64,000 bases of DNA from NCBI GenBank assembly GCA_002953655.1, contig CP025839.1:1488001-1552000 (forward strand), in the 5' to 3' direction. Both the position numbers and the translations under genes were made by a program. The notes beneath the pieces were generated by a model. It saw only the letters and a list, made by a program, of their open reading frames with translations, searched no databases and was not told where the DNA came from. Shown here in pieces: positions 9,113-56,122 of this stretch. Origin of the DNA: Latilactobacillus sakei (GTDB lineage Bacteria > Bacillota > Bacilli > Lactobacillales > Lactobacillaceae). Each line of letters begins with the position of its first letter. The stretch's first letter is position 1.

Positions 9113-9116
9113 ACTT

Positions 9117-9237
9117 GAAACGTGCCTTTAAAGCTAGATTTCTGCGCTTAACGACGATTGTCAAATCAGCGATTTCATCGCTAATTCACCACTCTATGTT
9201 AATGCTCAAAATCTGATCAAGCTTTAAAACCACTCTT
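9117..9237 (+). repeat. Palindromic 3'-UTR element, glmS copy 1
   Basis: A full unit running from AAACGTGC to CACTCTT. The outer arms TTTAAAGC and GCTTTAAA are exact reverse complements. The central arms GCGAT and ATCGC close the hairpin. TTCTGCGCTTA and AATGCTCA are the conserved blocks. Confidence 0.85.
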
Positions 9238-9243
9238 ACTTTT

Positions 9244-9363
9244 GAAACGTGCTTTTGATACCAACTTTCTGTGCTTTGCTACACTTGTCAAACCGGCGAA
9301 TCCTTCGCCAATTCGCCAAGTTAGGCAAATGCTCAAAAGTTACCCGGCAGCAAAACCACTCTT
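9244..9363 (+). repeat. Palindromic 3'-UTR element, glmS copy 2
   Basis: A full unit 127 bp from copy 1. The central arms GGCGAA and TTCGCC are perfect. The outer arms (TTTTG with CAAAA) pair only in part, the weakest of the set. Confidence 0.85.
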
Positions 9364-9369
9364 ATTTTT

Positions 9370-9489
9370 GAAACGTGCTTTTAAAACTAGCTTCCTCCGT
9401 TTAGCTACGTTAGTCAAATAACCGATTACATCAATTATTCGCCTAACTAGGCTATACTCAGAAGCTGATCAAGTTTTAAAACCACTCTT
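9370..9489 (+). repeat. Palindromic 3'-UTR element, glmS copy 3
   Basis: A full unit 126 bp from copy 2, with outer arms TTAAAACT and AGTTTTAA. Its last two bases overlap the glmS stop codon (9488-9490). Confidence 0.85.
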
Positions 9490-11302
9490 ATTCTACTGTG
9501 ACACTTTTGGCTAGGTTTCTTGGTTGGTCAACGTCATAGCCTCTTTGAAGACTTGCATAATAAGCAATCAATTGTCCTGGGATAATCCCTAATAATGGTG
9601 CTAATAGTGGATTGACATTTGGTAACACGACTTGGTCGCCAGCTTGTGCGTGGTCTTCGCTGACAATCGTTAACGTCTTAGCGCCACGTGCGCGAACTTC
9701 TTGTAAGTTGCCGCGTGTGTGATCAATCGTCTTAGCATCCGTTAAGAAGGCCATCACTGGTGTCCCTTCTTCAATCAAGGCAATTGTCCCATGTTTCAAT
9801 TCACCGGCAGCAAAACCTTCTGCTTGAATATATGAAATTTCTTTCAACTTCAAGGCGGCTTCTAAACTCAAAGCATAATCTTCGCCCCGACCGATGTAAA
9901 AGGCATTGCGCGTTGTCTTCAAGTACATCGTTGTATAATCTTCAATCGCTTGTTTTTCACTCAATAAGGTTTCCATCCCGGTTGCCACTAAAGCTAACTC
10001 ATGGTTAACGTCAAAATCTTGAGCAGCCTTGATAGCGGTATGGCGACCTAGCGCCACTGCTAAGAATAATTCAACCGCGATTTGCGCGGTGTAAGCCTTC
10101 GTTGAAGCGACCGCAATTTCAGGACCTGCATGCAGCAATAATGTATAATCCGCTTCTCGTGAGAGGGTTGAGCCCTGACTATTAGTGATTGTTAAACTTG
10201 GATAGCCTAATCGGTTCGTTTGAACCAATACTTGGCGACTATCAGCTGTTTCACCACTTTGGGTTAAGAAAATGAAGAATGGTTTCTTCGATAGAATTGG
10301 CATGTGATAACCAAATTCACTGGCCACATGGACTTCCACTGGTTTTTCAGCTAACTTTTCAAATAATGATTGGCCAATTAAACCAGCATGGTAACTGGTA
10401 CCGGCTGCCACAATATAAATCCGGTCTGCATCATCAATTGCCTTGAGAATCGCTGGGTCAATTTTCATTTGACCAGCATCATCCACGTATTCAGTTAACA
10501 AACGGCGCATGACTGCAGGTTGTTCGTCAACTTCTTTTAACATGTAATGCGGGTAAGCGCCTTTACCGGCTGCATTGGCATCCATGTCAACATGGTAACT
10601 ATCACGATGAATGAAAGTCCCGTCTAAATCTTCAATGTCCACCTTGTCTTTTTTAAGGGTGACCATTTCGCGGTCGTGAATTTCAATAAAGTCTTTGGTT
10701 TCGTTTAACATTGCTAAAGCATCTGAACAAACAACGTTGAAATCAGCACCGACACCAATTAATAATGGTGATTTATTCTTAGCCACGTATAACGTCTCGG
10801 GATCGTTCCGATCAATCATGACAAAGGCGTATGACCCTTCAATCAACGTTAATGCCTTGCGGAAAGCTTCCTTAGCTGATAATTGTTCTGTCTTGGCTAA
10901 ATAAGCGATTAATTGAACGGCCACTTCAGTATCTGTTTCACTTGCAAAGTTGACTTGGCTTAAATAAGTTGCCCGTAATTCAGCGTAGTTTGTTAAAACG
11001 CCGTTGTGAACCAAGTAGAAACGACCATCTTCTGAAACGTGTGGGTGCGCATTGGCTTGACTTGCAATACCATGCGTTGCCCAACGTGTATGACCAACAC
11101 CAATTGTCCCCTGTACTTCAGGACCAACGGCGGCTTTTAAAACACTAATTTTACCCGGTTCTTTAACCAAATAATCGCGACCCGTTTGACTATTAACATA
11201 AATCCCTGCTGAGTCATAACCCCGATAAGCTAATTTTTCTAAACCATTTAATAAAATTTCAGTTGTATCTTCTTTACCAATCACACCGACAATTCCACAC
11301 AT
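9488..11302 (-). CDS. glmS: Glutamine-fructose-6-phosphate aminotransferase (isomerizing)
   Basis: Makes glucosamine-6-phosphate from fructose-6-phosphate and glutamine, the first step to UDP-GlcNAc and the cell wall. It is 604 residues, the normal length. The N-terminal glutaminase starts MCGIVGVIG, where Cys2 becomes the nucleophile. Two SIS isomerase domains follow (about 285-420 and 455-590), and the C-terminus DQPRNLAKSVTVE is the family signature. No glmS ribozyme motif is visible upstream; instead GGTATA-type repeats suggest repressor control. GlmM, the next enzyme in the pathway, is encoded 0.9 kb further along. Confidence 0.98.
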   Translation of the reverse strand: MCGIVGVIGKEDTTEILLNGLEKLAYRGYDSAGIYVNSQTGRDYLVKEPGKISVLKAAVGPEVQGTIGVGHTRWATHGIASQANAHPHVSEDGRFYLVHNGVLTNYAELRATYLSQVNFASETDTEVAVQLIAYLAKTEQLSAKEAFRKALTLIEGSYAFVMIDRNDPETLYVAKNKSPLLIGVGADFNVVCSDALAMLNETKDFIEIHDREMVTLKKDKVDIEDLDGTFIHRDSYHVDMDANAAGKGAYPHYMLKEVDEQPAVMRRLLTEYVDDAGQMKIDPAILKAIDDADRIYIVAAGTSYHAGLIGQSLFEKLAEKPVEVHVASEFGYHMPILSKKPFFIFLTQSGETADSRQVLVQTNRLGYPSLTITNSQGSTLSREADYTLLLHAGPEIAVASTKAYTAQIAVELFLAVALGRHTAIKAAQDFDVNHELALVATGMETLLSEKQAIEDYTTMYLKTTRNAFYIGRGEDYALSLEAALKLKEISYIQAEGFAAGELKHGTIALIEEGTPVMAFLTDAKTIDHTRGNLQEVRARGAKTLTIVSEDHAQAGDQVVLPNVNPLLAPLLGIIPGQLIAYYASLQRGYDVDQPRNLAKSVTVE

Positions 11303-11846: not shown

Positions 11847-11892
11847 AAAAAAAGAGCGTCGGACAAAATTAATTTTGTCTTACGCTCTTTTT
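11847..11892. terminator. Terminator hairpin, GGACAAA-core family
   Basis: Stem AGAGCGT with ACGCTCT outside and GGACAAAA with TTTTGTC inside, with A and T runs on both sides. It serves the small membrane gene (+) and the glmM transcript (-) after its two palindromic elements. Confidence 0.85.
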
Positions 11893-11915
11893 GAATCGTC
11901 AAAATTTCATCGTTT

Positions 11916-12037
11916 AAACGTGCTTTTTTGTTGCAACAACTTCCGCTTAATCTAAAATTGCCAGTAATCCTAAAACCTTGGATTACTGGCAATTTGGTCT
12001 TAATGCTCAGTTGCTACCCGCAACTAAAAGCACTCTT
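11916..12037 (+). repeat. Palindromic 3'-UTR element, glmM copy 1 (variant centre)
   Basis: Outer arms TTTTGTTGC and GCAACTAAAA pair with one bulge. The usual centre is replaced by a longer hairpin, ATTGCCAGTAATCC (11957-11970) with GGATTACTGGCAAT (11979-11992). The conserved block TTAATGCTCAG is kept. Confidence 0.8.
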
Positions 12038-12042
12038 GATTT

Positions 12043-12160
12043 AAACATGCTTGTTGAAACTGACTTCTGCGCTTAACGATATTTGCCAAATCAGCGATTT
12101 TATCGCTAATTCGTCAAATTAGGTTAATGCTCAAAGTCAAACCGTTTCAAACGCACTCTT
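12043..12160 (+). repeat. Palindromic 3'-UTR element, glmM copy 2
   Basis: Outer arms TTGAAAC and GTTTCAA are perfect, as is the centre GCGATTTTATCGC. It ends 6 bp from the glmM stop codon. Confidence 0.85.
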
Positions 12161-12166
12161 TTTTAA

Positions 12167-22651: not shown

Positions 22652-22720
22652 CCTTTCTTAAAGCCTATTTCCAAAATACCACATTCGTCAAAAATCTAGT
22701 ATTTATCTGCTTTCAATATA

Positions 22721-22763
22721 AAAAAGGGGTGGAACAAAATTAACTTTTGTCCCACCCCTTTTT
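22721..22763. terminator. Terminator hairpin, GGACAAA-core family
   Basis: Outer stem AAGGGGTGG with CCACCCCTT and inner ACAAAA with TTTTGT. It ends the HesB-like/LiaFSR transcript on the minus strand. Confidence 0.85.
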
Positions 22764-22819
22764 AGGCTCCAAATATTGATAGCTTAAATCTGTTCTATAA
22801 GGCGTTGTCCCTTGCGTGC
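22764..22819 (+). repeat. Decayed palindromic 3'-UTR element
   Basis: Keeps the spacer CCAAATATTGATAG and the block TCTGTTCTATAAGG seen beside intact copies (compare 55409-55442), plus a short CGTGC. The centre and right half are lost. Confidence 0.5.
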
Positions 22820-25651: not shown

Positions 25652-25677
25652 TCAGTCTAGGGGCTGATTAACATAAA

Positions 25678-25794
25678 AAGAGTGCGTTGTCAGTGGTTAG
25701 CTTTTGAGCATTTGCAGAACTTAGCGAATTGGTGATGCAATCACCGGTTTGATAAGTTTAGCAAAGCACAGAAAGTTACTGACAAAAGCACGTT
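25678..25794 (-). repeat. Palindromic 3'-UTR element, inverted copy upstream of liaF
   Basis: Runs on the minus strand from AACGTGC to GCACTCTTT, opposite to all copies that abut stop codons. Outer arms GTCAGT and ACTGAC and centre GGTGAT and ATCACC are perfect. Read in reverse it is almost identical to the copy at 35491-35608. Confidence 0.85.
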
Positions 25795-25799
25795 AAAAA

Positions 25800-25885: not shown

Positions 25886-25902
25886 ACTAGTAGACTATTT
25901 TT

Positions 25903-25926
25903 GAAACGTGCTTAATGACGCACTCT
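25903..25926 (+). repeat. Miniature palindromic element next to greA stop
   Basis: Only the two termini remain: GAAACGTGC and GACGCACTCTA, almost back to back. This looks like an internal deletion of the ~120-bp unit. Confidence 0.55.
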
Positions 25927-25930
25927 ACTA

Positions 25931-31876: not shown

Positions 31877-32090
31877 AAAAAAAGCCCCGTCCTCAAAAGG
31901 GACGAAGCTTCGCGGTACCACCCTAGTTTATGACCTAGTCATACACTCAAGTTTGCATAACGGGCAATACCGGACTCAACGGTCAACTCTGAAAGTGAAC
32001 TTCACCTAAACTCAACTGAATAACTTACAGTCTATGATTATTCTCCCTGAAAGTTGGTTGTTAGGTTACTCTTTTTCATCTTTGTCTATA
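31877..32090 (-). promoter_or_regulatory. T-box leader (tRNA-Phe sensing) for pheST
   Basis: The conserved antiterminator sequence GGGTGGTACCGCG lies at 31923-31911, followed by a terminator (31908-31877) with a GC-rich stem and seven T. In stem I the specifier UUC at 31999-31997, followed by A, is a phenylalanine codon. Uncharged tRNA-Phe would switch on pheST. A candidate promoter TTGAAT-17-TTATAG lies just upstream, inside the end of the HxlR intergenic gap. Confidence 0.93.
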
Positions 32091-32125
32091 AACTTTATTT
32101 TAGCGTAAATTCAATGATTAAGCAA

Positions 32126-34425: not shown

Positions 34426-35415
34426 ATGAAAAATTCAAAACGCTTCGCAACACTTGCGATGCTAGCAATGACCGTTACATTATTTCTATCCGGCTGTATG
34501 CCACAAAAAATGAGTAGCCATCCTAAAGTCCCAACTGGCTTCATCTATGGTTCATCCTATAAATACATCGCCGTCCCATTACAACATATTATGGAACGCA
34601 TCGCTGATTTCTTCGGCGGCATCAATGGTTACGGCTGGGCGATCATCATCATCACCTTCGTGGTGCGGATGATTTTACTCCCATTAATGCTTAACCAATC
34701 AAATAAAATGACTGCGCAACAAGAAAAAACGCGTCGTTTGAAACCACAATTAGATATCGTTCAAGCACAACAAAAGGTTGCCACAACACCTGAAGAAAAA
34801 GCCGAATTAAGCCAATTAATGATGAAGGTTTATAAGGAAAATGATTCAAGTATGATGCCTAGCCTTGGCTGTTTAACCTTATTAATTCAATTACCAATCT
34901 TCTCTGGTTTATACCAAGCGATTCAATACTCACCCGAAATTTCAAGTAGTCATTTCTTCGGGATTGGCTTAGGTCAACCCAATATCATTATCACCATTAT
35001 TGCGACCCTCTTTTACGTTGGTCAAAGCGCCCTCTCACTAGTTGGGATGCCCGCTGAACAAAAGAAACAAATGCAAACAACCGTCCTTATGAGTCCTGCG
35101 ATTACATTCTTCATTTCGTTATTCGCACCAGCTGGGTTAGCACTTTACTTCCTTGCCGGCGGGATGATTATGATTATTCAACAAATGATCACAACCTTCA
35201 TCATCATGCCCCGTGTTAAAAAACGTATTGATCAAGAAATCAAAGAAAAACCAATCGTCACAGTCGTCACAAAAGACATGTTCACCAAAAAAGCAGCTGC
35301 TAAAGCAACTGAAACACCTGTAACACCAGAAACCACGCACACCAATAAGGCAACGACGCCTTCTGAAACAGGCAAACGTAACTCAGGCAAACAACGCCAC
35401 AAACCACAAGCATAA
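34426..35415 (+). CDS. yidC: Membrane protein insertase YidC2 (OxaA-type lipoprotein)
   Basis: Inserts proteins into the cytoplasmic membrane with or without Sec. In 329 residues it has a lipoprotein signal with lipobox LSGC (Cys24) and five membrane segments of the 60KD_IMP domain (about 60-270), including GYGWAIIIITFVVRMILLPL and a hydrophilic groove. A long Lys/Thr-rich C-terminal tail binds ribosomes, which marks the YidC2 class. ATG 34426 follows GAAAGGG. Together with rnpA-linked YidC1 elsewhere, Firmicutes usually carry two copies. Confidence 0.95.
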   Translation: MKNSKRFATLAMLAMTVTLFLSGCMPQKMSSHPKVPTGFIYGSSYKYIAVPLQHIMERIADFFGGINGYGWAIIIITFVVRMILLPLMLNQSNKMTAQQEKTRRLKPQLDIVQAQQKVATTPEEKAELSQLMMKVYKENDSSMMPSLGCLTLLIQLPIFSGLYQAIQYSPEISSSHFFGIGLGQPNIIITIIATLFYVGQSALSLVGMPAEQKKQMQTTVLMSPAITFFISLFAPAGLALYFLAGGMIMIIQQMITTFIIMPRVKKRIDQEIKEKPIVTVVTKDMFTKKAAAKATETPVTPETTHTNKATTPSETGKRNSGKQRHKPQA

Positions 35416-35426
35416 TTAGAAATACT

Positions 35427-35469
35427 AAAAGAGGCTCAGACAAAATAATTTTGTCTGAGCCTCTTTTTG
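35427..35469. terminator. Terminator hairpin, GGACAAA-core family
   Basis: A perfect stem of about 19 bp, AAAGAGGCTCAGACAAAAT with its complement, and T runs on both sides. It ends yidC and, after the repeat elements, the two-component operon. Confidence 0.92.
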
Positions 35470-35490
35470 ATATCCGAATATTGATGGTTT

Positions 35491-35608
35491 AAACGTGCTT
35501 TTGTCAGTAACTTTCTGTGCTTTGCTAAACTTATCAAACCGGTGATTTTATCACCAATTCGCCAAGTTCTGCAAGTGCTCAAAAGCTAACCACTGACAAC
35601 ACACTCTT
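35491..35608 (+). repeat. Palindromic 3'-UTR element, kinase copy 1
   Basis: A full unit with outer arms GTCAGT and ACTGAC and centre GGTGAT and ATCACC. The blocks CTTTCTGTGCTTTGCTA and GTGCTCAAAAG are conserved. It is the near-twin of the inverted copy at 25678-25794. Confidence 0.88.
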
Positions 35609-35614
35609 TTTGTT

Positions 35615-35678
35615 AATCGTGCTTTTTCGGGCATATTGTTGCAGTTAGCTACAAAATAACCGCCTGAAACGCACTCTT
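35615..35678 (+). repeat. Palindromic 3'-UTR element, kinase copy 2 (shortened)
   Basis: A 64-bp version with both termini and outer arms TTTCGGGC and GCCTGAAA (one G-U pair), with the centre deleted. It ends four bases from the kinase stop codon. Confidence 0.7.
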
Positions 35679-35681
35679 TTT

Positions 35682-37187
35682 TTAATCAGTATCTTCTTCT
35701 GGTGCGGCCTTTGTTTCTCTAACGAGTGGTAATTCAATCCGGAAGACCGACCCATGTCCGACACTACTTTCAAGTGAGACATTACCATCGTAGCCTTCAA
35801 CTAATTGTTGGGCAATGGCTAATCCTAACCCATTACCGCCTTTTTCCCGACTCCGAGCCTTATCAACCCGGTAGAACCGGTGGAAAACCTTTTTCTTATC
35901 TTCTTCCGAAATCCCTTCACCAAAATCTTGGACAGCAACTTGCGCATAACGTTCATCGTTAGCCACCGCGATATGAATTTCCTTGCGCGTCGTTGAATAT
36001 TTAATCGCGTTATCCAATAGAATAATCATGATTTGCTCAAGGTGGTTCCGGTTAATATTGACTAAAGCTTGACCATGCAAATCATCATCTAAAATAAACG
36101 TAAATTCAGGATAGAGCATCTCAAAATTATGATAATTTTGTAAAACGACTTTCCCAACATCCGTCACCTCAGTAGTGCCTTGTGTCACCGCCTGATCAGC
36201 CCGCGTTAAATCTAACATCTCTTGAATCAAGTTCTTCATCCGTAAAATTTCTTGCAAAGAAGCTGCTAAAGATTCCGACAAGACTTCCGGATCATCTTTG
36301 CCCCACCGATTCAATAATTGGAGGTGACCTTCAATGATCGCAACCGGGGTCCGTAATTCATGCGAGACATCGCTCACAAATTGATCTTGTTGTTCAAAGT
36401 AATGCTGAATCCGATTTAACATTTCATTAAACGCAATGACCAGGTCCGAAAGTTCATCTTGACTCCGCCTAGTTTCCGGAATCCGCACATTCGAATTTGG
36501 TTCAACATTAATAGCTTCAATCGTCTGCTTCATTGCCTCAATCGGCTGCAAGAAACGATTGGCTAATAAGTAACCAATTACAGCACTAAACAACATTGCA
36601 AATAACACAACAACCACCAGAACGATCCGCAATTCCAGCATCGCATGATTATAATCCCTTAGATTATTAGTCACTTCAACATAACCGATGGTGCGATTCG
36701 TGTTAGCAGTCTTAATGGGGCGAATCCCGATTAAATGAATCTTCCCAAAAATATGCTCCCGCTTTAAGACATCGGTGTCTTGCTTTGGAAAAGAGGTGGC
36801 TCGACCACGTGAGGCGAATAACCCTTGCCGATTTTGATCGTAAACTTTAACCGTCGTATCCTGCTGTGCCAAACGCATTAAAACCGAATCTTGATAAATT
36901 GCTTTAGAATCTCTAGGGGCTGGATCTAATTGTTCAGCAACAAATTCTGATGTTAGCGTCTTTTCCGGGCGCCCCAAACGTTGTTGGATGACAGTCACTG
37001 TATCGTGAACATTATCGACTTCCTTATGCAATAAAATGTTCGAAATACTACTGAAAATCACAATTGAAAAAATCGCAAAGGTGATAAAAATGGCCAACCC
37101 AACTGCAGCTGCCCATTTCACCTTTAACGATATTTTACGACCCTTATTATTATTTTCACTGGGTGTCTCTAAGTCATTTGTTATCAC
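35682..37187 (-). CDS. Sensor histidine kinase, ArlS/CsrS-like
   Basis: A 501-residue membrane kinase with two transmembrane helices (about 24-52 and 185-210) enclosing an extracellular sensor of about 135 residues. HAMP is at about 211-265, the HisKA domain has phospho-acceptor His in [12 protein letters not shown], and HATPase has [16 protein letters not shown]. It overlaps its response regulator by 4 bp, so they are one operon. Domain layout and partner resemble ArlRS of staphylococci and CsrRS/CovRS of streptococci; the signal is unknown. Confidence 0.93.
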
Positions 37188-48221: not shown

Positions 48222-48398
48222 CACCTCCATGAAATTTAGAGAGAAAATGCAGCTAAGCACCAAAAAACGGCCCTTTCAACAGAAAGGCCCGCTATTCGAT
48301 AACTTAATTCGTCCGAATTAGAAACTATCAGCCCAGAGACATCAAGTGTCTACTAAGGCGAGAAGCGGGAACTTCTGCTTTATTTCTCAACGAAAATA
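48222..48398 (-). promoter_or_regulatory. L20-type leader with terminator upstream of infC
   Basis: A ~180-base leader before infC. It contains GCAGAAGTTCCCGCTTCTCGC (48380-48360), resembling the L20 leader of Firmicutes, and a terminator stem GGGCCTTTC with GAAAGGGCC followed by six T (48262-48292). L20 binding is expected to favour termination. A match to the Rfam L20_leader model was not tested. Confidence 0.75.
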
Positions 48399-49765: not shown

Positions 49766-49769
49766 TTTT

Positions 49770-49888
49770 GAAACGTGCTTTTCAAAGCAACTTCCTGCGT
49801 TTAGCACTGTTAGCCAAATAATCGACCTGATCGATTATCCGTCTAACTATGCTAATCCTCAGAAGTTACCCGCTTTGAACGCACTCTT
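49770..49888 (+). repeat. Palindromic 3'-UTR element, thrS copy 1
   Basis: Nearly perfect inverted repeat: outer arms TCAAAGC and GCTTTGA, then TTAGCA with TGCTAA, GTTAG with CTAAC, and centre ATAATCGA with TCGATTAT. It best shows that the element is one long hairpin. Confidence 0.9.
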
Positions 49889-49892
49889 TTTT

Positions 49893-50011
49893 GAAACGTG
49901 CTTTTACAACTTGATTCCTGCGCTTTGCGTCACCTATCAAATAAGCGGTAAATACCGCTTATTCGCTAGGCTGTGCAAATGCTCAGAATCAACCAGTTGT
50001 AACGCACTCTT
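49893..50011 (+). repeat. Palindromic 3'-UTR element, thrS copy 2
   Basis: A unit 123 bp from copy 1, with different outer arms (ACAACT and AGTTGT) and centre (AAGCGGTA with TACCGCTT), both perfectly complementary. Its last base is the first base of the thrS stop codon. Confidence 0.9.
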
Positions 50012-51981
50012 TATAGATTAATCTGCTTTGCGTGTTGTTTGCCATCTCGGCTGTAGTTACCGACTTCTGCAACAATTGCATTGATGAACATGTCTGAAGC
50101 TTCTTCGGCAGCATTTTCTTCGCCGTATTTACGGACAGAAACGGTTGCTTGTGCAAGTTCTTGATCCCCAACAACTAATGTGTATGGAATCTTGCTTGTT
50201 TGAGCTTCACGAATCTTATAACCCATTTTTTCGTTACGATCATCGATCCGAACCCGTAAACCGTGTTTAATCATTTCATCTTTAATGTTTTTAGCATAGT
50301 CATAGTGAAGATCATTCTTAACTGGAATGATCACAGCTTGTGTTGGTGCTAACCATGTTGGGAAAGCGCCTTTGTAAATTTCTGTTAAGTAAGCTGTGAA
50401 ACGTTCCATTGTTGATACTAAACCACGGTGAATCATAACTGGCCGATGCATTTCGCCATCTTCACCAACATAATGTAGGTCAAAACGTTCTGGCAACATA
50501 AAGTCTAATTGGATTGTTGAAAGTGTTTCTTCATTCCCCATAGCCGTCTTTGTTTGAACGTCTAATTTAGGACCGTAGAAAGCAGCTTCACCTTCAGCTT
50601 CGACATAGTCTAGGCCAAGATCATCCATGGCACCCTTCAACATTGCTTGTGCCTTATTCCACATTTCATCATCATCGAAGTATTTTTCTGTGTTAGCAGG
50701 ATCACGATAACTTAAACGGAATGTGTAATCATTGATGTTAAAGTCTGAGTAAACTTCGATCATCAATTTTAAGATTGATTTGAATTCATTTTGAATTTGA
50801 TCTGGACGAACGAATGTGTGACCATCATTTAAAGTCATTTCACGCACCCGTTGTAACCCTGAAAGCGCACCTGATTTTTCATAACGGTGCATCATACCAA
50901 GTTCAGCTAAACGAATTGGTAATTCACGGTATGAACGTGGATGATGTTTGTAAACTTGGATATGTGATGGACAGTTCATTGGCCGTAATTCAAGCATTTC
51001 GCCATCGCCCATGTCCATTGGTGGGAACATGTCTTCACGATAGTGATCCCAGTGTCCTGATTGTTTGTACAAGTCTAAGTTCGCCAAGATTGGTGTGTAA
51101 ACATGTTCGTAACCATTAGCAACTTCCTTGTCAATAATGTAACGTTCGATTGAACGACGAATTGTCGCACCATTTGGTAACCAGTAAGGAAGGCCAGCAC
51201 CGACTTTAGGGTCAACGAAGAATAAGTCTAATTGATTACCAATAACACGGTGATCACGTTCCTTAGCTTCTTGACGACGTTTCAAATCAGCATCAAGTTC
51301 TTCTTGTTTAGGATAAGCTGTTCCGTAAATCCGTTGTAACATTTGGTTACTTGATTTACCTTGCCAATAAGCACCAGCAACTGATAATAATTCGAAGAAT
51401 TTAACGTCACTAACTTTACCTAACATTGGTGCTAAGCTAAAGTCTGAGTAATCACCTAATTGGTAAACTAAAACGTGATCAGCTTCAACTTCGTCTAATA
51501 AAGCAAGTTTATAAGTTTGGCCGGCAAATAATTGCTTAGCGTCATCTTTTGAAACATTGACCCGTGAAATTGCTGCCCCTGATTGGATTAATTTAGCCAT
51601 TTCTGATTTAATTTCTGGTAAATCTGTCACAGCAACTTGGCCAGCCTCGTTATCTGTATCATAGTAGAAACCATCTTCGGTTGCCATGACTTCACCAAAT
51701 TGCATTTCTGGATAGTGTTGACTTAAAGTAGCAGCTAATACGAAGGCTGCAGTATGCCAAGTGGCAGTGAGGTTAACCGCTTGATCATCTTTAGTGATGA
51801 TTTCGATTGCCCCGTCTTCCAAAAGTGGTTGTTGTAAATCAACCACTTCACCGTTAAATTTGCCGGCGATTGCCTTTTTTGCCAAGCTCGTACTGATTGA
51901 TTTTGCAACATCTAGTAAACTGGTTGCTTGCTCAAATGTTTTTTGAGCACCATCTGGAAAAGTTAATTGAATTTCTGCCAT
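50011..51981 (-). CDS. thrS: Threonyl-tRNA synthetase
   Basis: Charges tRNA-Thr. In 656 residues it has an N-terminal TGS domain (1-60), a SAD-type editing domain (about 65-225, with metal His residues) and the class II core. The core has motif 2 [27 protein letters not shown], zinc-ligand MNCPSH and motif 3 [17 protein letters not shown]-terminal anticodon-binding domain follows. A T-box leader controls it. The stop codon overlaps a palindromic repeat. Confidence 0.98.
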
Positions 51982-55089: not shown

Positions 55090-55184
55090 AAAGACACCTT
55101 CTTATCTTTTAATTTAAGGAATATTAATTATATTTTACTATTCTAAACAGACAGTATAACAATATTATAACATGACATGCAACA

Positions 55185-55302
55185 GAGTGGTCTACCAACT
55201 GGGTTGATTCTGAGGATTAGCAGGGTTAGGCGAATAACCGATGCAGTCGGTTGTTTGGCTAACATCGCTAACCGCAGAAATCAAGTTGGCAGAGCACGTT
55301 TC
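55185..55302 (-). repeat. Palindromic 3'-UTR element, inverted copy upstream of nrdR
   Basis: Runs on the minus strand. Outer arms CCAACT and AGTTGG pair; centre AACCGA with TCGGTT and GTTAGGCGAATAA with its imperfect partner are recognisable. It lies in the opposite direction to the coaE copy across the terminator. Confidence 0.75.
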
Positions 55303-55350
55303 AGATTGATTTCGCACCGGGTTACTTTTGCGCATTTACGGAGTGGTGTG
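55303..55350 (-). repeat. Palindromic 3'-UTR element fragment, inverted
   Basis: A tandem partial unit after the inverted copy: CGCACCGGGTTACTTTTGCGCATTTACG and a terminal GAGTGGTGTG. The centre is lost. Confidence 0.5.
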
Positions 55351-55358
55351 AATAGACC

Positions 55359-55404
55359 AAAAAAGGAGCTGGGACAAAAGTAATTTTGTCTTCAGCTCCT
55401 TTTC
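55359..55404. terminator. Terminator hairpin, GGACAAA-core family
   Basis: Outer stem GGAGCTG with CAGCTCC, inner GGACAAAA with TTTTGTC, T runs on both sides. It ends the polA-mutM-coaE transcript. Confidence 0.88.
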
Positions 55405-55426
55405 GATATCCGAATATTGATGGTAT

Positions 55427-55543
55427 AAACGTGTTCTATAAGTCATATCCTTCCGGTTAACCTTGAATGGCAAACGATTGCTTGCAGCAATCATTCGCCA
55501 TGCTGTGTTAATCCTCAGGACATCCCGACTTATGGCACACTCC
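55427..55543 (+). repeat. Palindromic 3'-UTR element overlapping coaE
   Basis: A full unit with outer arms ATAAGT and ACTTAT and centre GATTGCTTGCAGCAATC. Its right half is coding: bases 55508-55543 are the last 11 codons and stop of coaE. Confidence 0.88.
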
Positions 55544-56122
55544 TGCCAAAACTGCCTTTAATTGGGCTTCCAATTGAGCCAGTGAACCTTGGTTATCAAT
55601 CACAAAATCTGCTCTGTCGCGTTTTTCAGTCAATGATGCTTGACTGTTAATCCGTTTCAAAGCATCTTCGCGACTTAATTGATTCCGCGCCATCAATCGC
55701 GCTAATTGCTTTTCAACTGGTAAATAAACGACCATCACTCCGTCGCAAACCGTTTCGTAGTGCTGTTCATACAACAACGGTAAATCCAAAATAACTAGCG
55801 GTTCTTGATGCGCTTTAGCTGCGGCCATCTCGGCCATAATCGTTTCCCGAATGACCGGTGCGGTAATCGCGTTGAGTTGCGCCAAGGCAGCTTGATTACC
55901 AAAGACCAACTTACCCAAAGCTGCTCGATCAACTTGGCCGTTTTGCACAAGTTGCTCGCCAAAAGTGGCTCGAATTTGTGCTTGCACCCTTTGATTATTC
56001 GCCAACACTTGGTGTGCGATTTGATCCCCGTCAATAATCGGCAAGCCTTGTTGGGCCATCATTTGCGCCACTGTTGTTTTTCCGGTAGCAATGCCACCCG
56101 TTAAGCCTAAGAAATAAGTCAT
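55508..56122 (-). CDS. coaE: Dephospho-CoA kinase
   Basis: Last step of CoA synthesis. The 204-residue P-loop kinase has Walker A GLTGGIATGKTT (7-18), DGDQIAHQVL (about 32-41) and NRDRADFVIDNQG-type lid residues near 165. The C-terminal ~11 residues (GVCHKSGCPED) come from a palindromic repeat and are unlike the rest. It overlaps mutM by 4 bp. Start ATG 56122. Confidence 0.95.
   Translation of the reverse strand: MTYFLGLTGGIATGKTTVAQMMAQQGLPIIDGDQIAHQVLANNQRVQAQIRATFGEQLVQNGQVDRAALGKLVFGNQAALAQLNAITAPVIRETIMAEMAAAKAHQEPLVILDLPLLYEQHYETVCDGVMVVYLPVEKQLARLMARNQLSREDALKRINSQASLTEKRDRADFVIDNQGSLAQLEAQLKAVLAGVCHKSGCPED

Follow-up and report, generated by a model that had tools for sequence, protein, structure and literature searches.

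Results

The 3' end of the kinase gene and related modules in the window

The window analysed here is a 64,000-nucleotide stretch of Latilactobacillus sakei DNA, which belongs to a host genome of 2,103,571 bases (G000) and was compared with, among others, the genome of a sister species (G005). At the starting locus the gene of an ArlS-type histidine kinase converges with one that encodes a 60KD_IMP protein (Pfam), and the 3' side of the kinase gene is made up as follows:

35682..35684, minus strand: ArlS-type histidine kinase stop codon, with the first hairpin unit directly 3'
about 35612..35678, minus strand: short (collapsed) hairpin unit, first of two; its ends, AAGAGTGCG...AAAGCACGATT, were read directly
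35488..35614, minus strand: full 127-nt hairpin element; 114.5 bits with covariance model R1, sense RNA fold z -5.1
35469..35485, minus strand: spacer ATCAATATTCGGATATC (17 nt)
35427..35468, minus strand: GACAAAA-core terminator hairpin and T tract, between the convergent genes

The earlier note had read a module of stop codon, element, spacer and terminator here, and this order stands on the minus strand from 35684 to 35427, with a short unit and a full unit in the place of the element, followed by the spacer and the GACAAAA-core terminator. Model R1, which was built from the window copies, gave no report for the short unit at 35612-35678. A mini-hairpin within the spacer itself (ATAT-TCGG-ATAT) was ruled out by variants that break the pairing. 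At a lax threshold Rfam returned miRNA, sRNA, antitoxin and similar entries for 35400-35700, all of them below their gathering scores, so that no family fits.

Related features occur elsewhere in the window:

9115..9495, minus strand: three head-to-tail hairpin units and a partial fourth, directly behind the stop of a SIS/glutamine-amidotransferase gene
11847..11892, minus strand: GACAAAA-core terminator of the glmM-like composite
11910..12043, minus strand: hairpin unit 2, 3' of the glmM-like gene, then a divergent spacer
12040..12166, minus strand: hairpin unit 1, 3' of the glmM-like gene
22719..22763, minus strand: GGGACAAAA-core terminator of a decayed copy
22765..22818, minus strand: decayed right part of the element, with spacer CTATCAATATTTGGAGCC
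25672..25798, plus strand: hairpin unit beyond a core terminator, pointing at that terminator
25900..25927, minus strand: collapsed mini-element 3' of a greA-like gene; the syntenic G005 unit is full length
49768..50017, minus strand: two hairpin units and a partial third, 3' of a class II aminoacyl-tRNA synthetase gene
55177..55304, plus strand: hairpin element on the opposite side of the coaE terminator, facing it
55360..55403, minus strand: GACAAAA-core terminator of the coaE composite, hairpin and T tract read directly
55405..55421, minus strand: spacer, an exact copy of that at the kinase site
55424..55550, minus strand: full hairpin element that extends into the end of coaE, where its left end encodes the CoaE C-terminus

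Recurrence of the arrangement behind three further genes had also been claimed. Behind coaE the claim is borne out by the identical 17-mer at 55421-55405, in the same order as at the kinase, and behind glmM the spacer does differ, the gene that precedes the copies at 12.1 kb having phosphoglucomutase domains, as glmM should. There is indeed a decayed copy at 22820-22719, with the right part of the element, CTATCAATATTTGGAGCC and a terminator, but the name 'HesB-like' for the gene before it found no confirmation, since no Pfam family matched the 99-aa reading frame. A stable hairpin followed by a T tract, the mark of an intrinsic terminator, is present at 35468-35427 and at 55403-55360. Some arrays are closed by partial left half-units that run into the terminator (9112-9054 and 49765-49700, minus strand). 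Terminators faced by elements on both sides lie at 25.67-25.93 and 55.18-55.55 kb of the window and at 785.5, 1558.3 and 1848.7 kb of G000.

A large family of hairpins with a conserved fold

The element is an imperfect hairpin of roughly 117-127 nt, to which a longer form of about 184 nt adds the spacer and an intrinsic terminator. The sense RNA folds of nine copies in the window have z-scores from -4.9 to -9.3. In the host genome R1 found at least 142 matches at E values up to 1, and at least 140 after overlap removal, a lower bound in that the best 150 of 1,224 candidates were scored; 137 copies had E values of 0.001 or better and three of the 140 had values above 0.01. The copies form 85 clusters, 52 of a single unit and 33 of two to five units, the arrays usually running head to tail with a period of about 125 nt. 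Their density per 200 kb of G000 is uneven, with one copy in 1.2-1.4 Mb and 31 and 28 in the next two bins. Rfam 15 at its gathering scores gave no match for the element in the 64-kb window; its only matches there were a T-box leader and an L20 leader (31895-32091 and 48255-48386, minus strand).

Among 96 aligned copies, standard pairs fill 92.6% of 4,337 pair cells, compared with 69.9% after shuffling, and at 42 of 46 base pairs both sides have changed in a compensatory way; pairing fell to 34-43% when one arm was shifted by 1-3 columns. Counted in an alignment that had been fitted to model R1, G-U cells numbered 438 and A-C cells 79. When pairs with 20% or more G-U were removed the counts were 152 and 75 over the 40 pairs that were left, and in the apical helix they were 57 and 12. 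A DNA hairpin that is blind to strand is expected to hold G-U and A-C in about equal numbers, and the excess of G-U therefore points to selection on the sense transcript: it is the sense RNA of the element on which selection seems to act.

Most first units lie on stop codons

Genes were taken as reading frames called by a simple script, a sense frame being one of at least 80 codons. On this basis 120 of the 140 units are in the sense orientation relative to the gene on their 5' side, and 20 units in 15 clusters are antisense to it, among them four of the 17 composites whose parts are correlated below (813428, 1696104, 1725034, 1848665). The antisense units count against a pure 3'-UTR role, because such a role does not need them. 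A sense frame ends near 75 of the 91 first units (16 have none), and the end of the stop codon, measured against the AGTG motif of the element, falls at -2 to +11 in 59 of the 75, which places a hairpin within 15 nt of the upstream stop in these cases; it lies further inside the element in three, at 13-60 nt in one and beyond 60 nt in 12. Eleven stops are at -2, and each is a TAG in which a T is joined by the AG of the element itself. Of the 68 clusters that run in one orientation behind a sense gene, 59 begin at most 11 nt from the stop, against 13.8 under uniform intergenic placement (100,000 simulations, maximum 27). Other genomes of the family behave similarly: at 28 loci with a sense frame the stop is at -3 to 12 in 19, at 13-60 in one, beyond that in six and further inside in two.

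Filled and empty versions of the same site show that the native end of the frame can be kept. The 6PGD gene at 38.13 kb of the window ends CAA TAA without an element in G000 and CAA TAG, followed by AGTGCG, with an element in genome G001; the gene at 9.5 kb ends GAA TAA without an element in G001 and GAA TAA GAGTGG with one in G000. Unlike these two, coaE takes its last codons from the element, whose left end (55508-55550, minus strand) encodes the C-terminus GVCHKSGCPED of CoaE in G000; CoaE of G001 ends CHNK.

A selfish, MITE-like repeat that inserts anywhere, and of which the insertions after stop codons alone escape selection, could also leave copies behind genes, its RNA fold being a by-product of the DNA hairpin used in transposition. 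The copy number, the arrays, the decay and collapse of copies and the existence of antisense copies all sit well with such a repeat, and the BOX, RUP and SPRITE repeats of Streptococcus are treated as parasitic in the account of PMC3049150. A neutral safe zone would, however, extend over 13-60 nt as well, where one of the 75 first units lies, and the surplus of G-U over A-C pairs points to the transcribed strand; nor was a target duplication found at the sites inspected. We consider this explanation a doubtful one, although it retains some weight.

Linkage of hairpin, spacer and terminator

The earlier note had proposed a search of the genome for the spacer and its neighbours. Run genome-wide, the search placed the spacer at eight sites with at most two mismatches, and the reversed pattern at none. 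A core terminator follows directly 3' in seven of the eight and a hairpin directly precedes in six of those seven, so the proposed association holds at these places, but one site (L007) has neither neighbour. The seven spacers that bear a terminator are preceded by a full element in five cases, by a shortened hairpin at L004 and by a remnant alone at L008. In the window itself there are two spacer matches with up to three mismatches, where 0.24 are expected. Spacer matches of at least 12 in 17 bases were found for 13 of the 91 array-terminal units (0.69 expected), always at offset 2, and each of the 13 is followed by a core terminator, compared with 18 of the 78 other array-terminal units. Those 78, which fall below 12 of 17, are the majority, and most array-terminal units are accordingly without the spacer. 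Four further units combine a core terminator with a weak spacer at the same offset, the 9-10 matching bases of 17 being at chance level by score.

As its 3' part the long form carries one of the GACAAA-core intrinsic terminators of the same genome, and these are a common part and not the unit: of the at least 40 distinct core terminators listed, 16 have an element match within 150 nt (0.8 expected) and 24 have none. Collapsed remnants are seen at a few of the terminators without a match (355632, 389715, 124189). The association of hairpin and terminator is strong but not exclusive.

An element that targets existing intrinsic terminators, inserting into the A-tract that begins at the stop codon in these compact genomes, would bring the two together with the terminator as its target and not as a part of the unit. 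A word is repeated in the A-tract to the left of the element and in that at the terminator of some composites (AAAAAACG at 1721734, AAATAAG at 1848665), overall weakly above chance (p 0.043); elements point at one terminator from both sides at 25.8 and 55.3 kb of the window; and at the 22.8-kb site G005 has only CAATTGATGTT, its terminator being present without a hairpin. These facts suit a terminator target. Such a target is harder to square with the same asymmetric terminator accompanying its element at different loci, with the absence of any A-tract between the stop and the units that abut it, or with some hairpin-only units that, judged by eye, lack a terminator and lead straight to a start codon with its ribosome-binding site (for example 955361, 1860351 and 2042724). 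We hold it to be unlikely.

The composite as a discrete form

With the coaE composite as query, BLAST returned 17 full composites including the query, eight in G000 and nine in G005, which are 72-96% identical to it. The ends of the matches fall into three classes: full composites, hairpin only and right part only. The full matches, about 184 nt long, span from the left end of the hairpin to the end of the terminator or nearly so, which gives the composite fixed ends. Different genes are followed by similar composites. Those at 1543424 and 1558617 of G000 are alike at 92% in the element, 100% in the spacer and 94% in the terminator, and those at 813428 and 1725034 at 94%, 100% and 89%, respectively; in G005 a similar composite lies at 811868, behind a gene other than coaE.

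The first bases of the spacer are also seen further afield. Among 34 loci, the best matches only, from seven genera and 11 further genomes of the family, C-N-A follows directly after the hairpin in 29 where about two are expected, and the start of the spacer for this reason is part of the element beyond these two species. The same loci often show a second hairpin downstream, but the downstream stretch folds at z -2 or lower in only 16 of the 34. At five loci of genome G124 (L047, L216, L222, L228 and L234) the downstream hairpin and the outer arm of the element share a word resembling ACATAA/TTATGTC, and from these letters they look as though one had been derived from the other.

The claim that element and terminator travelled or evolved as one unit is upheld in part. 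There is a discrete composite with fixed ends, and similar copies of it stand behind unrelated genes, but the similarities of element and terminator are not significantly correlated over 17 composites (rho 0.15, p 0.10), and hairpins have been swapped, collapsed or lost while spacer and terminator persisted. The correlations of element with spacer (0.13, p 0.12) and of spacer with terminator (0.03, p 0.42) are likewise not significant; these 17 include four copies with chance-level spacers (9-10 of 17), which were admitted because they have the offset and the core terminator. The values do not support strict joint inheritance of element and terminator. In the pair 1523488/1793781 the elements are 94% alike and the terminators 74%.

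Turnover and distribution

The kinase site of G005 carries another hairpin, but its spacer and terminator are orthologous to those of G000, and visual inspection showed no element at either the kinase or the coaE site of genomes G001, G002 and G004. The compared blocks of G000 and G005 are 84-99% identical. Where the flanks are syntenic, 27 of 29 G005 clusters and 26 of 27 G000 clusters match the model in the other species; five G005 clusters have no orthologous flank in the compared stretches. No recent insertion is seen between the two species, since the three exceptions retain a partial or remnant-like piece. In the alignments inspected, the difference between G000 and G005 arrays is one of whole units, and some hairpins have collapsed. 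No clear target-site duplication was found at the filled and empty, and the longer and shorter, pairs inspected; an ATTAAA at 45.8 kb of the window in G001, considered as such a duplication, is indistinguishable from the ordinary right end of the element. As in MITEs, closely similar copies occupy non-orthologous loci. MITEs also have terminal inverted repeats and target-site duplications; the ends of the element pair with each other imperfectly.

A regulatory RNA of the 3' UTR that had evolved in the host, and that was inherited vertically and duplicated by ordinary recombination without being mobile, would account for the strong covariation, for the mostly sense orientation, for a position at stop codons that recurs in other genera and for the clusters that G000 and G005 have in common. 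It does not lead one to expect similar composites behind different genes in two species, or sites that are filled in one of G001 and G000 and empty in the other, in both directions, and we think it quite improbable.

R1 matched 133 of 301 sampled genomes of the family Lactobacillaceae, in 21 of 40 genera; named carriers are Latilactobacillus fuchuensis, Lapidilactobacillus bayanensis and Paucilactobacillus nenjiangensis. All six genomes of the genus carry the element, two of them with 21-22 copies and three with counts that are lower bounds (the best 150 candidates having been scored). In a sample of the order 25 of 295 genomes matched, nine of them outside the family and weakly; long hairpins are present at 14 loci from these nine, the interior being similar in several, and five of the loci have a stop codon at the left end. 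In a sample of the class, searched with strict filters that lose weak matches, two of 299 genomes matched, both within the order. Matches to the junction pattern in Bacteroidales contain no model match. Outside the lactobacilli, the array-junction pattern is matched exactly three times in tandem in Firmicutes bacterium ZOR0006 (locus L125, JTLC01000021.1, positions 91-407; R1 E value 0.07), which may represent a distant relative or chance.

Discussion

The module behind the kinase is the terminator-carrying form of a large and apparently undescribed family of RNA-like hairpin repeats that, in lactobacilli, sit mostly on the stop codons of genes. In the literature searched we recognised no paper that describes the repeat in lactobacilli, although an earlier description is possible in the subscription journals, most of which lay outside our coverage. 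The module, the family, its fold, its seat at stop codons, the dispersed composites and the turnover of units were all observed. The reading we favour, to which we give a probability of about 0.55, is that of a mobile repeat, similar to REP or BOX, that acts as a hairpin of the 3' UTR; its mobility, transcription and effect are the parts we infer. The element would spread, or would have spread, as a non-autonomous mobile repeat, a proposal that draws on the copy number, the similar copies behind unrelated genes, the empty sites in relatives and the differences of whole units between arrays. Lying mostly on or behind a stop codon in the sense orientation, it would make up the first part of the transcribed 3' UTR and act there as an RNA hairpin; in its long form it would terminate the transcript as well. 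By analogy with the REP hairpins near stop codons in E. coli, a likely consequence would be an effect on the upstream message, through ribosome release or through decay or processing at the 3' end.

A more specific proposal concerns the way in which the repeat comes to lie where it does. It might home to stop codons, inserting at T^AA or TA^A so that its own first bases restore the stop, with the full form replacing the 3' UTR of the host gene, and its targeting may be coupled to the transcript or to the termination of translation. We put this forward tentatively and think it unlikely in just this form.

If the favoured reading of a mobile 3'-UTR hairpin is true, some 85 gene ends in 2.1 Mb, or roughly one gene in 25 on an assumed number of about 2,000 genes, share a structured sequence that Rfam 15, run on the window copies, did not recognise. 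The reading would explain a recurrent part of lactobacillus transcripts and would offer, outside E. coli, a natural test set of what stop-codon hairpins do to ribosome release and mRNA decay, and it raises the question of how a repeat reaches stop codons so precisely.

Enterobacterial REPs are palindromes of 20-40 nt with a conserved head and are accompanied by a linked RAYT transposase in the genome; the BOX elements of Streptococcus are composed of boxA, boxB and boxC modules. Like the REP and BIME sequences of enterobacteria, the repeat described here consists of small imperfect palindromes present in many copies 3' of genes. It differs from REP in that its unit of 117-127 nt, typically about 127 nt, exceeds the 20-40 nt range, in stems that vary between copies and yet remain paired, in the stop-codon seat of most first units and in its terminator-bearing long form. 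In E. coli 446 of 4,072 REPs lie within 15 nt of a stop codon (PMC12306157), and REPs less than 16 nt from the stop are described as downregulating translation or stalling ribosomes (PMC12306157, citing its reference 17); on that account the REP hairpins near stop codons of E. coli are the closest functional parallel (PMC12306157).

Within the same order, Efa-1 of Enterococcus faecalis is listed at 163 nt in a table of PMC2267715 and by its description there is a stem-loop repeat family; it is possibly related to the weak R1 matches in other families of the order. Closest in kind are the BOX, RUP and SPRITE repeats of Streptococcus pneumoniae (PMC3049150), also of the same order, which are small and interspersed, are structured when transcribed and are described as overrepresented between convergent genes, SPRITE being terminator-like with AAAA/TTTT ends and enriched near the 3' ends of genes. 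As they are described in that source, the pneumococcal repeats are confined to the pneumococcus and its near relatives and are given no fixed place at the stop codon (PMC3049150), whereas the element reported here is found in 21 of the 40 sampled genera of its own family.
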